In this document: piece after piece, positions 50,479 to 64,000 of the stretch
Numbering within the stretch: position 1 is the first letter of the stretch
How the letters are laid out: each line of letters starts with the position of its first letter
Source of the DNA: Mongoliibacter ruber
GTDB lineage: Bacteria; Bacteroidota; Bacteroidia; Cytophagales; Cyclobacteriaceae
Assembly: GCF_003003005.1 (NCBI RefSeq)
Contig: NZ_PVTR01000003.1
Coordinates: 44,704 to 108,703 of the forward strand
Direction of reading: 5' to 3'
Length of the DNA: 64,000 nucleotides
Made by a program: the position numbers and the translations under genes
The notes under the pieces: generated by a model
The model's input: the letters and a program-made list of their open reading frames with translations, nothing else
The model's database searches: none
Told to the model about the DNA's origin: nothing

Positions 50479-51783
50479 ATGGCATCATTTAAAGTAAAAG
50501 GAGGCTTAAAGCTCAAAGGTGAAATAATTCCCCAAGGAGCAAAAAACGAGGCCTTGCAGATTCTCTGTGCAGTATTATTGACTGCAGAAAAGGTAACCAT
50601 TAACAAAATCCCAAACATCAGGGATGTAAATAAACTGATCGAACTTTTAGGGGAGATGGGGGTCAAAGTAGAACAACTGGCACCTGAATCCTATTCTTTC
50701 CAGGCGGATAACATTAACCTGGAATACCTCGAAACCAGTGATTTTCTAACCAAGGCCTCTTCATTAAGGGGGTCAGTGATGATTTTAGGACCGCTATTGG
50801 CAAGATTTGGAACAGGCAGGTTGTCCAAGCCCGGAGGTGACAAAATCGGCCGTAGAAGAATGGATACTCACTTTACAGGTTTTCAAAAACTGGGGGCTGA
50901 GTTCCACTACGATAAGAAAAAAGAAATTTACCATATAGATGGCAAAAATCTCAAAGGCACCTACATGCTGCTCGACGAGGCATCTGTAACAGGTACAGCC
51001 AATATCTTGATGGCGGCTGTCATGGCTGAAGGTAAAACCACCATTTACAATGCTGCATGTGAACCATATTTGCAACAGCTATGTGACATGCTCAACCGAA
51101 TGGGAGCCAAAATCACTGGAGTAGGCTCTAACTTGTTGCATATCGAAGGGGTAAAAGAATTAAAAGGCACAGATCATACCCTATTGCCGGATATGATTGA
51201 AATAGGGTCTTTTATTGGTTTGGCAGCGATGACTCAATCTGAAATCACCATCAAAGATGCTCAAATACACCGTTTAGGGATCATTCCAGAGACCTTCAAA
51301 CGAATGGGTATCAAGATGGAGTTTAGAGGTGATGATATCCATATACCGGCTCAAAAACATTTCGAAATAGAGACTTTTATTGACGGCTCCATTTTGACGA
51401 TTGCTGATGCCATTTGGCCAGGATTTACCCCTGATTTGCTCAGTATCGTATTGGTCACAGCTACACAGGCAAAAGGTACCGTATTGGTTCATCAGAAAAT
51501 GTTCGAAAGTAGGTTGTTCTTTGTCGATAAACTGATTGATATGGGCGCGCAGATTATCCTTTGCGACCCACATAGAGCGACGGTAATTGGGTTGGATAGA
51601 AAATATCCACTCAGGGGAATCCGAATGACCTCACCTGATATTCGAGCAGGAGTATCATTATTGATAGCAGCCATGTCAGCCGAAGGCACTTCAGTCATTG
51701 ACAACATTGAACAGATTGATAGAGGATACCAATACATCGATGAGCGTCTTAATGCACTTGGTGCACAAATAGAGCGAATTTAA
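50479..51783 (+). CDS. murA: UDP-N-acetylglucosamine 1-carboxyvinyltransferase (Cys-to-Asp type)
   Basis: This 434-residue enzyme makes the first committed peptidoglycan precursor. GAKNEALQILCAVLLT (Lys22-Asn23) binds substrate, LRGSVMILGPLLARFG leads to the active-site loop, and PDMIEIGSFIGLAAM and FESRLFFVDKLIDMGAQ are typical. In the loop KPGGDKIGRRRMDTHF the fosfomycin-target Cys is Asp121 (codon 50839-50841), which in other organisms gives fosfomycin resistance with retained activity. It follows DUF4290 with the ATG immediately after its stop codon. Confidence 0.96.
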   Translation: MASFKVKGGLKLKGEIIPQGAKNEALQILCAVLLTAEKVTINKIPNIRDVNKLIELLGEMGVKVEQLAPESYSFQADNINLEYLETSDFLTKASSLRGSVMILGPLLARFGTGRLSKPGGDKIGRRRMDTHFTGFQKLGAEFHYDKKKEIYHIDGKNLKGTYMLLDEASVTGTANILMAAVMAEGKTTIYNAACEPYLQQLCDMLNRMGAKITGVGSNLLHIEGVKELKGTDHTLLPDMIEIGSFIGLAAMTQSEITIKDAQIHRLGIIPETFKRMGIKMEFRGDDIHIPAQKHFEIETFIDGSILTIADAIWPGFTPDLLSIVLVTATQAKGTVLVHQKMFESRLFFVDKLIDMGAQIILCDPHRATVIGLDRKYPLRGIRMTSPDIRAGVSLLIAAMSAEGTSVIDNIEQIDRGYQYIDERLNALGAQIERI

Positions 51784-51801: not shown

Positions 51802-51842
51802 AGACCTGTCAGTTTACCTATAACTGGCAGGTCTTTTTTTTT
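51802..51842 (+). terminator. terminator of DUF4290-murA
   Basis: The stem AGACCTGTCAGTT / ACTGGCAGGTCT (one mismatch) is followed by T9, 20 bases after murA. Confidence 0.9.
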
Positions 51843-51861
51843 GCCTTCAAGTCTGTAGTTT

Positions 51862-52185
51862 AATTGTAGATCTTAGATTGTAGATTGTAGATTTCAGATC
51901 TTAGATTTTAGATTGGGGTCAGTATTGAGTTGAAGGTTTGGTGTATCGGTCTCAGTTCATCAATTCATCAGTTCGTCAGTTCATCAATACATCAATTCAT
52001 CAGTTCATCAATTCGTCAATTAATCACTTCCCAAAACATACAATCAACCCAACCTTTAAAACAACAATTGTAGATTTTAGATTTTAGATTGGGGTCAGTA
52101 TTGAGTTGAAGGTTTGGTGTATCGGTCTCAGTTCGTCAATTCATCAATTCGTCAATTCACCAATTCATCAACACCTCAATTCTCC
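51862..52185 (+). repeat. nested satellite, upstream block (2 copies) before bestrophin
   Basis: Each copy has 7-base units (ATTGTAG, ATCTTAG, ATTTTAG), then a conserved core TGGGGTCAGTATTGAG ... GGTCTCAGTTC, then 8-base units (RTTCRTCA), then a CAATCAACCCAACCTTTAA tail. Copy 1 has seven 7-base and nine 8-base units (the latter at 51955-52026); copy 2 has three and about six. The cores begin at 51914 and 52090. This fills the 485-base murA-bestrophin gap. Confidence 0.9.
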
Positions 52186-52268
52186 TCCTAAAAATGAGTA
52201 ATTAGAAGATTTAACGGGATCATAGGGTAGGAATTTGTAATTTAATATCCTGAAAAATTTTTATAAAC

Positions 52269-53231
52269 ATGATCGTAAGAAGAAACCTCAAGCTCAAGAT
52301 GATCCTCCATTACACATGGAGACAGCTGGCCTATTACCTCTTTTTATCAACTTCTATTGTTGTCTTACACGACATATATGAAATTGTCATTTTTAACATT
52401 CCAAGCTATACGATAGCCGCCCTAGGTACAGCATTGGCAATATTTCTGGGATTTAAAAATGACCATGCTTACGACAGGTGGTGGGAAGCAAGAAAAATCT
52501 GGGGCTTGATGGTGAATTACAGCCGCGCTTGGACACGGCAAGTGACTACAATGGTGATGTCGCTGGACAGCCATGAGAATGAAGAAATCAAAGCATTCCA
52601 AAAAACCTTGGTCTACAGGCATATCGCATTTGTCAATGCCTTGAGGGTGTTTTTAAGAATAAAGAACACCTACAACAAAGACCAAAGTGAGATGTTTGAA
52701 GATGACAATACCTATGCGGATACCAAGCCGTTTTTAAGTGAAGAGGAGTATAAAATCTTTTGCTCCCAAGACAATCCTCCCAACTATTTGCTTCAACAAC
52801 AAGGTTCGGATTTAAATTTGGCTTTTAGAAAAGGCTGGCTAAGTGACTACAGGTTTGTGAAAATGGAGGAAACTTTAGTAGACTTCAATGATATCCAAGG
52901 AATGAGTGAACGCATAAAAAACACCCCACTACCAAGGCAATACACTTTTTTCTCAAGAGTTTTTGTGTTGATCCATTGCACTTTGTTGCCTATGGTTTTT
53001 GTAAGTGAATTGGGTTGGAAAACAATTCCGATTGCATTGGCCGTTTCATTCGTGTTTTTGGCGCTAGACCTGATTGGCGAACGTACAGAAGATCCTTTCG
53101 AAAATAGGCTGGAAGATACTCCAATGTCCTCATTGAGTGTAACTATAGAAACCAACCTCAAAGAACAGCTCAAGGAGAGCAAAATCAATTTCCCCAAGAA
53201 GTATGAACCTGAAAATGGAATTGTCTTTTGA
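52269..53231 (+). CDS. bestrophin-family ion channel
   Basis: This 320-residue membrane protein is of the bestrophin (RFP-TM) family, pentameric chloride or cation channels. FLSTSIVVLHDIYEIVIFNI (helix 1), SYTIAALGTALAIFLGFKND and AYDRWWEARKIWGLMVNYSR are the family signature; later segments near residues 235-275 form the remaining helices, and GERTEDPFENRLEDTPMSSL is the conserved C-terminal motif. The gene is isolated between two arrays of the same satellite, which is unusual. Confidence 0.92.
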   Translation: MIVRRNLKLKMILHYTWRQLAYYLFLSTSIVVLHDIYEIVIFNIPSYTIAALGTALAIFLGFKNDHAYDRWWEARKIWGLMVNYSRAWTRQVTTMVMSLDSHENEEIKAFQKTLVYRHIAFVNALRVFLRIKNTYNKDQSEMFEDDNTYADTKPFLSEEEYKIFCSQDNPPNYLLQQQGSDLNLAFRKGWLSDYRFVKMEETLVDFNDIQGMSERIKNTPLPRQYTFFSRVFVLIHCTLLPMVFVSELGWKTIPIALAVSFVFLALDLIGERTEDPFENRLEDTPMSSLSVTIETNLKEQLKESKINFPKKYEPENGIVF

Positions 53232-53240
53232 TTGAGGAGT

Positions 53241-54083
53241 TCACAATTGTAGATTTTAGATCTTAGATTTTTGATTTTAGATTGGGGTCAATACTGAGTT
53301 GAAGGTTTGGTGTACTGGTCTCAGTTCGTCAGTTCGTCAATTCATCAGTTCATCAAAAATTCAATCAACACAACCTTTAACCCAATAATTGTAGATCTTA
53401 GATTTTAGATTTTAGATTGGGGTCAATACTGAGTTGAAGGTTTGGTGTACTGGTCTCAGTTCGTCAGTTCGTCAATTCGTCAATTCATCAAAAATTCAAT
53501 CAACCCAACCTTTAACCCAACAATTGTAGATTGTAGATCTTAGATTTTAGACTGGGGTCAATACTGAGTTGAAGGTTTGGTGTACTGGTCTCAGTTCGTC
53601 AGTTCGTCAATTCGTCAATTCATCAAAAATTCAATCAACACAACCTTTAACCCAATAATTGTAGATCTTAGATTTTAGATTTTAGATTGGGGTCAATACT
53701 GAGTTGAAGGTTTGGTGTACTGGTCTCAGTTCGTCAGTTCGTCAATTCGTCAATTCATCAATTCCCAAAACAAACAATCAACCCAACCTTTAACTTTTTT
53801 AACATTTAACCTTTAACCCAATAATTGTAGATTTCAGATTGTAGACTGGGGTCAATACTGAGTTGAAGGTTTGGTGGATCGGTCTCAGTTCGTCAGTTCA
53901 TCAATTCGTCAATTAATCAATTCCCAAAACAAACAATCAACCCAACCTTTAACCCAACAATTGTAGATCTTAGATTTTAGATTGGGGTCAATACTGAGTT
54001 GAAGGTTTGGTGTACTGGTCTCAGTTCGTCAGTTCGTCAATTCATCAATTCATCAAAAAATACAATCAACCCCACCTTTAACA
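53241..54083 (+). repeat. nested satellite, downstream array (6 copies)
   Basis: Cores (TGGGGTCAATACTGAG) begin at 53283, 53418, 53553, 53688, 53847 and 53983: spacing 135, 135, 135, 159 and 136. Each has 3-5 heptamers at the left, four 8-base units at the right and a tail such as CAATCAACCCAACCTTTAAC. Within each core ACTGAG and CTCAGT form a 6-bp inverted repeat across 21 bases (for example 53293-53298 with 53320-53325). No ORF is supported. Confidence 0.92.
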
Positions 54084-62994: not shown

Positions 62995-63616
62995 AATGAA
63001 ACAAAAATTTGCCTTGGTCTTTTCCATTATTGTCTGGCTGGCTGTTATCATTCAATTTTTCGTGATGTTGGAAAACCGGGTGGTTTCCATAGCAGAATCA
63101 AGCATTCGGTTTTTCAGCTTTTTCACCATTTTGACCAATATTCTGGTAGCAGTGTATTTTACTTTTCAGTCGAATAAACTAAAACCAAACTCCTTTTGGA
63201 ATCGACCTGGAACTTTAACGGCCATTACCGTTTACATTTTAGTCGTAGGCTTGGTCTATCAGATCGTTTTGCGACCGATTTGGGATCCTCAGGGGCTTGC
63301 ACGATTGACAGATGAACTTTTGCACTCTGTCAATCCATTATTGGTGCTTTACTTTTGGTGGAGATATGAAAAATTTCGAGAGTTGAAATGGTCTCAACTC
63401 CCAAAATGGCTGATTTACCCTTTTCTGTATTTTATCTGGGCCATGACACACGGATTGATCACGGGGTTCTATCCTTACCCATTTGTCAATCTCCCTGAGA
63501 TTGGATTGGCACAACTGAGCATCAACTTCATTGTGCTGGTATCGGTGTTTTTGGGATTTTCTGTGTTACTGATGTGGTTGGGGGAAAAAGTGAATACCCA
63601 GCGCGATGAGCATTGA
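62987..63616 (+). CDS. Pr6Pr-like membrane protein
   Basis: This 209-residue protein has six hydrophobic helices (ALVFSIIVWLAVIIQFFVML, FFSFFTILTNILVAVYFTFQ, LTAITVYILVVGLVYQIVLR, NPLLVLYFWWRYE, WLIYPFLYFIWAMTHGLITG and a final one), matching the Pr6Pr/FAR-17a-type family. ATG 62987 overlaps the peptidase stop codon, with a second ATG at 62996. The stop codon lies inside the start of a tandem repeat. Confidence 0.82.
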   Translation: MSKMKQKFALVFSIIVWLAVIIQFFVMLENRVVSIAESSIRFFSFFTILTNILVAVYFTFQSNKLKPNSFWNRPGTLTAITVYILVVGLVYQIVLRPIWDPQGLARLTDELLHSVNPLLVLYFWWRYEKFRELKWSQLPKWLIYPFLYFIWAMTHGLITGFYPYPFVNLPEIGLAQLSINFIVLVSVFLGFSVLLMWLGEKVNTQRDEH

Positions 63617-64000
63617 GTTTTTAACTCATGTATTATCGAGCTATAAGCTCTACACTCATTGATCCGAAGGTGCAACCTTCGGATAACGCATCACCTTAAC
63701 CTTCAAATGATTTAAATAGCTTCTCAAAAAAAACAAATTTGCGCTGAAAGATGCGTTGTCACGCGGTTGTACCGCGGGACTGCTGAGTATTGAGTTTTTA
63801 ACTCTTGCATTATCGAGCTGAAAGCTCTTGACTCAAGAATCCGAAGGTGCAACCTTCGGATAACGCATCACCTCCACCTTTAAATGATTTAAATAGCTTC
63901 TCAAAAAAAAACAAATTTGCGCTGAGAGATGCGTTGTCACGCGGTTGTACCGCGGGACTGATAAGTATTGAGTTTTTAACTCTTGCATTATCGAGCTGCA
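63612..64000 (+). repeat. 178-bp hairpin-rich tandem repeat, 2 full copies and part of a third
   Basis: Units begin at 63612, 63789 and 63967 (spacing 177 and 178) and run off the window. Each holds GAGTT/AACTC, GAGCT/AGCTC, TCCGAAGGT/ACCTTCGGA, ACGCATC paired with a distant GATGCGT (63686-63692 with 63750-63756) and CGCGGT/ACCGCG. No gene is present. The stems are conserved while several loop bases change between copies. Confidence 0.9.

Follow-up and report, generated by a model that had tools for sequence, protein, structure and literature searches.

Dispersed satellites of long non-coding repeats have been described in few prokaryotes. In the part consulted here, a survey of prokaryotic reference genomes published in 2019 reports them in only two species, Leptospira interrogans and Methanocella conradii, and proposes that some unknown mechanism of transposition is at work (PMC6749651). 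The repeat family of Mongoliibacter ruber described below is a further case of these rare dispersed non-coding satellites, new in being nested and in having a candidate birthplace. As in the two earlier species, it forms intergenic tandem arrays of one long non-coding repeat at many places (PMC6749651, same part). Going by the description given there, it is distinguished by its nesting, with 7-mers and 8-mers inside the unit, by a unit of 95-159 bases as opposed to 37-69 for the families listed under those species, and by a candidate source locus common to relatives. We encountered the family in a stretch of 64,000 nucleotides of the M. ruber genome, which we call the window.

Several other intergenic repeats share individual features with it. 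Mycobacterial interspersed repetitive units (MIRU) form minisatellite arrays at many loci and vary in copy number; they belong to an unrelated organism and are not known to contain inner 7-mer and 8-mer blocks. BIME/REP elements are mosaics of intergenic modules that occur in many copies with RAYT transposases, and the cyanobacterial STRR are intergenic tandem heptamers with species-specific spread and variable unit number. Mosaic intergenic modules in many copies are found here too (background partly from the consulted section of PMC3049150); unlike BIME/REP elements with their RAYTs, however, our unit is absent near all seven RAYT loci. Tandem heptamers of the TAACTGA type (PMC4679880) and the GGGAATC type of Xanthomonas and Nostoc (PMC4692102) are also intergenic, species-specific in their spread and variable in unit number, as the consulted parts of these sources describe them. 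Among long simple repeats, heptanucleotides ranked first in abundance in most genomes of an earlier survey cited there, and slippage was proposed as the cause (PMC4679880, same part). In contrast to such tandem heptamer repeats, the heptamers here are two to seven units of a longer composite that also has a core, octamers and a tail, with a period of 95-159 bases. Pneumococcal BOX resembles our family as a composite interspersed repeat with variable inner tandem modules, for which unequal crossover was proposed; it differs in its terminal inverted repeats, for which a fit to an insertion sequence was proposed and which were not recognised here, in its predicted RNA fold, which has no RNA support in our family, and in that whole units are tandem here (PMC3049150, consulted section). 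Among the papers listed by searches of open-licence literature, none had a title or displayed abstract on the present repeat or on nested satellites in Cyclobacteriaceae.

The window contains two arrays on either side of a bestrophin gene (52269..53231, + strand; PF25539, E 2.4e-65), which is context and lies outside the repeat. The first, C3a (51863..52182, + strand), comprises two units between a murA-like gene ending at 51783 and the bestrophin gene, and the second, C3b (53246..54083, + strand), comprises six units between the bestrophin gene and ilvD; both were delimited by TRF, unit counts and a core scan. The scan used a 35-base core with up to three mismatches and returned eight + strand matches, compared with none in each of 100 dinucleotide-preserving shuffles. 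Cores 1 (51924..51958) and 2 (52100..52134) in C3a and core 7 (53857..53891) in C3b match with three mismatches, and cores 3 (53293..53327), 4 (53428..53462), 5 (53563..53597), 6 (53698..53732) and 8 (53993..54027) are exact. This agrees with the initial annotation, which had proposed eight composite copies, two upstream and six downstream of bestrophin. Directly after the murA-like gene, a terminator-like hairpin is followed by a T run (51802-51843), and by reading the same arrangement is present in a genome of the same genus.

Each unit proceeds from heptamers of the ATTTTAG / ATTGTAG / ATCTTAG type through a linker resembling ATTGGGGTCAAT to the 35-base core, then to octamers of the RTCARTTC type and a tail. 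Copy 4 (53388-53522) serves as an example, with four heptamers (53388..53415, by sequence reading and unit counts), core 4, three octamers (53463..53486, by unit counts) and a tail read from the sequence (53487..53522), all on the + strand. TRF detects a 135-base period across 53253-54082 (6.0 copies, score 1090), and the four cores from 53293 to 53698 are spaced by exactly 135 bases, as had been noted, with subsequent steps of 159 and then 136. Under a fixed scoring rule, copy 1 has seven heptamers (51863..51911) and nine octamers (51959..52030), copy 2 has three heptamers (52067..52087) and six octamers (52135..52182), all on the + strand, and the six downstream copies have three to five heptamers and, after the core, three or four octamers. 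TRF also recovers both blocks of copy 1 and the octamers of copy 2, and together these results bear out the 7- and 8-base unit counts first given for the locus. Both upstream cores have ATTGAG instead of ACTGAG facing CTCAGT, so that their stem pairs through G-U, again as first described.

The family extends well beyond these two arrays. A core model (R1), built from the sequences of 22 chosen rows without any structural component, found 39 full cores, grouped into 13 arrays that lie on contigs C2, C3, C4, C11 and C17, and the 31 cores that lie outside the window answer the initial suggestion that further copies be sought across the genome. Scanning the window together with 20 fetched stretches directly gave the same number of full cores; one truncated core was found by the model additionally at C4:299304. 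Alignment A1 covers 38 of the 39, with the contig-edge core at L011:35 left out, and alignment A2, like R1, covers the 22 chosen rows. The core is the best conserved block, with a mean identity of 89% in its 50-column alignment compared with 76% for whole units. At most of the other arrays the long period is 95-159 bases, with 244 reported at C4c, and C11c and C17b are single-unit arrays. C11z and C17a both run off contig ends in compatible orientation and belong to the same subfamily; they may therefore be one array.

We found no called ORF across the cores of any array in the M. ruber genome, and the heptamers, read from the window sequence, contain stops. Two short ORFs open within octamers (L012:13449-13721 and L014:9016-9441), which we read as chance, and at the alr site the convergent gene terminates inside the octamers. 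With a non-coding unit of more than 30 bases at several separate genomic places, the family is a dispersed non-coding satellite; non-coding is the best reading, and we claim no positive function for it. A viral-contig or plasmid source was rejected, since the array downstream of bestrophin had no match in the plasmid collection and the core had none, by exact pattern only, among viral contigs. The original interpretation as a nested satellite is thus upheld, with no Rfam family, no plasmid or exact-pattern viral match, and more copies elsewhere in the genome.

Taking the array as +, the neighbouring genes are oriented ++ at C3a, C3b, C11a, C11b and C11c, -- at C4a, C4b, C4c and, if joined, C11z/C17a, and +- at C11d, C17b and C2. 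Arrays with co-directional neighbours are therefore sense at five places and antisense at four. None of the 12 places lies between divergent genes, suggesting that some placement rule or selection may act. Neighbour calls skip small ORFs under about 100 aa, which makes some contexts less sure, as are those at L010:797-1405, L016:3610-4272 and L012:12140-12622, where the neighbours had no Pfam match. Array C4a adjoins a gene for a 23S rRNA intervening-sequence protein (PF05635, L009:18220-18609) situated among sugar-nucleotide genes.

Variation among the units points to how the arrays may have grown. Across the 13 arrays, the fixed scoring rule counts 2-7 heptamers and 2-15 octamers per unit. 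Segments of 90 bases are 91.7% alike within arrays and 86.5% alike between them (C2 left out), a difference reached by none of 2000 label permutations. Greater likeness within arrays and variable counts would be the expected outcome of slippage, unequal exchange and local homogenisation. By eye, the left ends of arrays fall at heptamers, and the right ends vary between octamers and tail; most units of the 12 non-alr arrays carry an extra tail. Our preferred reading, to which we assign a probability of roughly 0.6, is that the nested satellite grows by slippage and unequal exchange and spreads by recombination between repeat-filled spacers, probably from the copy beside alr. Slippage would alter the 7-mer and 8-mer counts, and unequal crossing-over would multiply the 95-159-base unit and keep each array uniform. 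The alr-side copy would be the source of the other arrays, with units landing in spacers that already contain matching short-word tracts. The carrier would be ordinary homologous recombination or gene conversion, acting without a dedicated transposase.

The place of alr in this proposal derives from relatives. In two overlapping samples that each include the M. ruber genome, one of 196 genomes from the family and one of 390 from the order, the core model found three matching genomes apiece, figures that may miss weak copies because search filters were stricter above 40 genomes. The matching relatives are G001, of the same genus, with two core matches (one full, one of positions 11-50), and G352, of another genus, with one (positions 14-46). 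In M. ruber, in G001 and, as a partial match, in G352, a core lies directly 3' of alr (identified by PF01168/PF00842), and L140 aligns with L017 on either side of the alr array. The expectation that the core would recur across species was thus borne out in two relatives, and there only at a single locus, beside alr. Because no other place had a core in two or more genomes, the likely birthplace of the core is the alr site; its copy is likely the old source, and the 12 other arrays would represent later spread. Heptamer-type words follow the alr stop at 4 of the 17 alr loci read in the direction of the gene (G001, G002, G352 and G396), and likewise in M. ruber. A blastn search with the 135-base unit gave matches in 4 of 59 genomes, M. 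ruber included, and the longest listed match outside it spans 57 of the 135 bases.

Bestrophin shows no such association. Judged by this protein, the closest named relatives are Mongoliibacter sp. LCM1.Bin19 (L029, 89%) and Pararhodonellum marinum (L030, 88%). Arrays are absent from all 80 bestrophin loci compared in other genomes; two weak core-like matches near such loci (L029:355 and L106:2596) are isolated and lack heptamers and octamers. A bestrophin-linked function was rejected on these grounds, and the position of the gene beside the arrays looks incidental.

Sister sites in G001 offer a view of the spacers that our proposal treats as landing sites. The unaligned spacer between murA and bestrophin lacks a core and measures 20 bases, compared with 424 in M. 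ruber, and that between bestrophin and ilvD, also without a core, measures 246 compared with 881; arrays may be missing from G001 because it is a draft MAG of 290 contigs. The bestrophin-ilvD spacer of G001 keeps an octamer pair, one of seven octamer-pattern places in that genome, together with a tail-like tract. Octamer-pattern places number 158 in M. ruber, 7 in G001 and 5 in G352, with none in each for the reversed control. Heptamer-pattern places number 67, 20 and 28, respectively, with a control that is not independent because the pattern reads the same backwards; GATNNTA heptamers, in which the reversed pattern is identical and hence provides no control, occur in 24 of 295 class genomes. 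Nine G001 loci, selected by heptamer or octamer matches, were compared with the fetched M. ruber stretches, and three of them (L110, L122 and L138) lie in spacers orthologous to word-array spacers of M. ruber (P 0.005 to 0.015, from the share of the genome compared). The words within orthologous spacers often differ. Another spacer, downstream (3') of a short-chain dehydrogenase, holds the satellite in M. ruber and other short-word tracts in G001 and G352. Instead of landing sites, the partial words seen at sister sites may be remnants of arrays that have decayed.

Other repeats also occupy spacers. In M. ruber, a second nested satellite is found near contig ends on C20, C16 and C18 (L020, L018, L019 and L021); its core is different, and it also contains octamers and a TTTAAC tract. 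Its period is about 159 bases at C20 and C18, and several contigs end inside it. A third satellite, on C5 (L162:3121-4256), has a period of 120 bases and 9.3 copies, and includes a ACTGAGTTCTGGAAGGTTTGA stretch and a CGCAGAT-type block. On C17, pdxA and a 3-keto-disaccharide hydrolase gene are separated by 2 kb of spacer (L014:7166-9229), a mosaic of modules, many of which recur in related genomes. Further short-word tracts, with AAGAGGC-, GAATCAA-, TTTACGA- and GGATGAA-like heptamers among them, lie in spacers at L012:16558-16727, L112, L116, L138, L205 and L214.

It is conceivable, if unlikely, that spacers in this bacterial group are written and rewritten from a shared stock of short words, and that a dedicated process copies satellites among them, as a prokaryotic parallel to the higher-order satellites of eukaryotes. 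Words would be swapped, fused into composites and multiplied to give nested satellites, and the process would carry them to further spacers. Consistent with this, the 159-base and 120-base families combine related blocks with different cores, although the frequency of such blocks is overstated because stretches were fetched for matching the repeat, and word-filled spacers keep their position while their words differ. When a 3.1-kb query from C17, comprising about 2 kb of spacer and its coding flanks, was searched against G001, G352 and G002, these genomes yielded 49, 54 and 57 matches, respectively. A general 7- or 8-base periodicity of spacers was rejected: the window's other 7,780 spacer bases have none, with few runs at lags 11, 14, 16, 17, 19 and 24, so that this periodicity belongs to certain spacers.

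Slightly less likely again, in our estimation, is a non-autonomous, MITE-like mobile element, moved in trans by a transposase and then multiplied in tandem at each landing site. Many arrays start near the same point (...AAATTGTAG or ...CAACAATTGTAG), C11c and C17b each consist of one unit, and the core contains an inverted repeat, as might be expected of such an element. This inverted repeat is internal to the unit rather than terminal, however, and by eye no terminal inverted repeats were found at array ends. Right ends vary between tail and octamers, and no target-site duplication was recognised, the sister spacers being too different for a clean empty site. The genes flanking C17b were not found side by side in relatives. 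Five arrays (C4a, C4b, C11b, C11c and C17b) share a common left end and the module before it, and this, together with the want of a clean empty site, is why we leave the mobile-element reading open at a low probability.

A RAYT/REP origin was rejected. No unit match occurs in roughly 3.3 kb around any of the seven Y1/RAYT genes, and blast searches with the unit, the left module and the tail gave no match at the seven Y1_Tnp loci and a match at both control array loci. One of these genes, just past the window, adjoins a palindromic 177-base repeat (AATCCGAAGGTGCAACCTTCGGATAACGC...) at C3:109323-109529, which is also present at 63605-63998 in the window; at the other six Y1 loci, inspection by eye showed either different repeated palindromes or no obvious one.

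We consider it improbable that the arrays are protein-binding sites kept by selection, for instance in chromosome organisation, with the core as the putative site. The stronger conservation of the core (89%, versus 76% for the whole unit) and its persistence at alr in two genera would fit such a role, but recent spread likewise conserves sequence, and 39 full cores in one genome against two and one in the sole matching relatives is unlike the distribution of an essential site.

Hardly credible, finally, is selection on the stem as part of a transcribed structured RNA or attenuator, an idea that the initial annotation had drawn from the G-U pairing. Over 19 distinct cores the six-pair ACTGAG/CTCAGT stem is 93% paired, compared with 17-46% when the partner is slid by one to three columns, an excess that is expected because the structure was drawn from the consensus. 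Three of its pairs vary to G-U only. In the covariation test, however, none of the six pairs changed on both sides, so that no compensatory change supports selection on the stem, and every measure equalled the shuffled control. Pairing is lost at one position in 6 of the 19 rows and at two others in a single row each. The four strands folded gave z-scores of -1.76, 0.28 (minus strand), -0.66 and -1.70, with 8 and 11 of 200 shuffles folding equally well on two of them. In the longer structure proposed by RNAalifold, double changes affect two pairs, either of them in 2 of the 38 rows, and the covariation term contributes -0.57 of -8.2 kcal/mol. Rfam returned nothing at gathering score and one chance-level match (E 0.53). 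TAnnTTTG, the consensus of the Bacteroidota promoter motif, is absent from both C3a and C3b, and the occurrence of arrays both sense and antisense to their neighbours is a poor fit to a fixed element of neighbouring mRNAs. An RNA element was accordingly rejected, on the lack of an Rfam family and of stem covariation, the folding z-scores and the weak RNAalifold covariation.

Contigs C11, C16, C17, C18 and C20 end inside arrays, and such families may therefore be under-counted in draft genomes. Under our preferred reading of growth within arrays and spread from the alr-side copy, the candidate birthplace can be followed in relatives, which makes the route from a single copy to a family spread across the genome testable.
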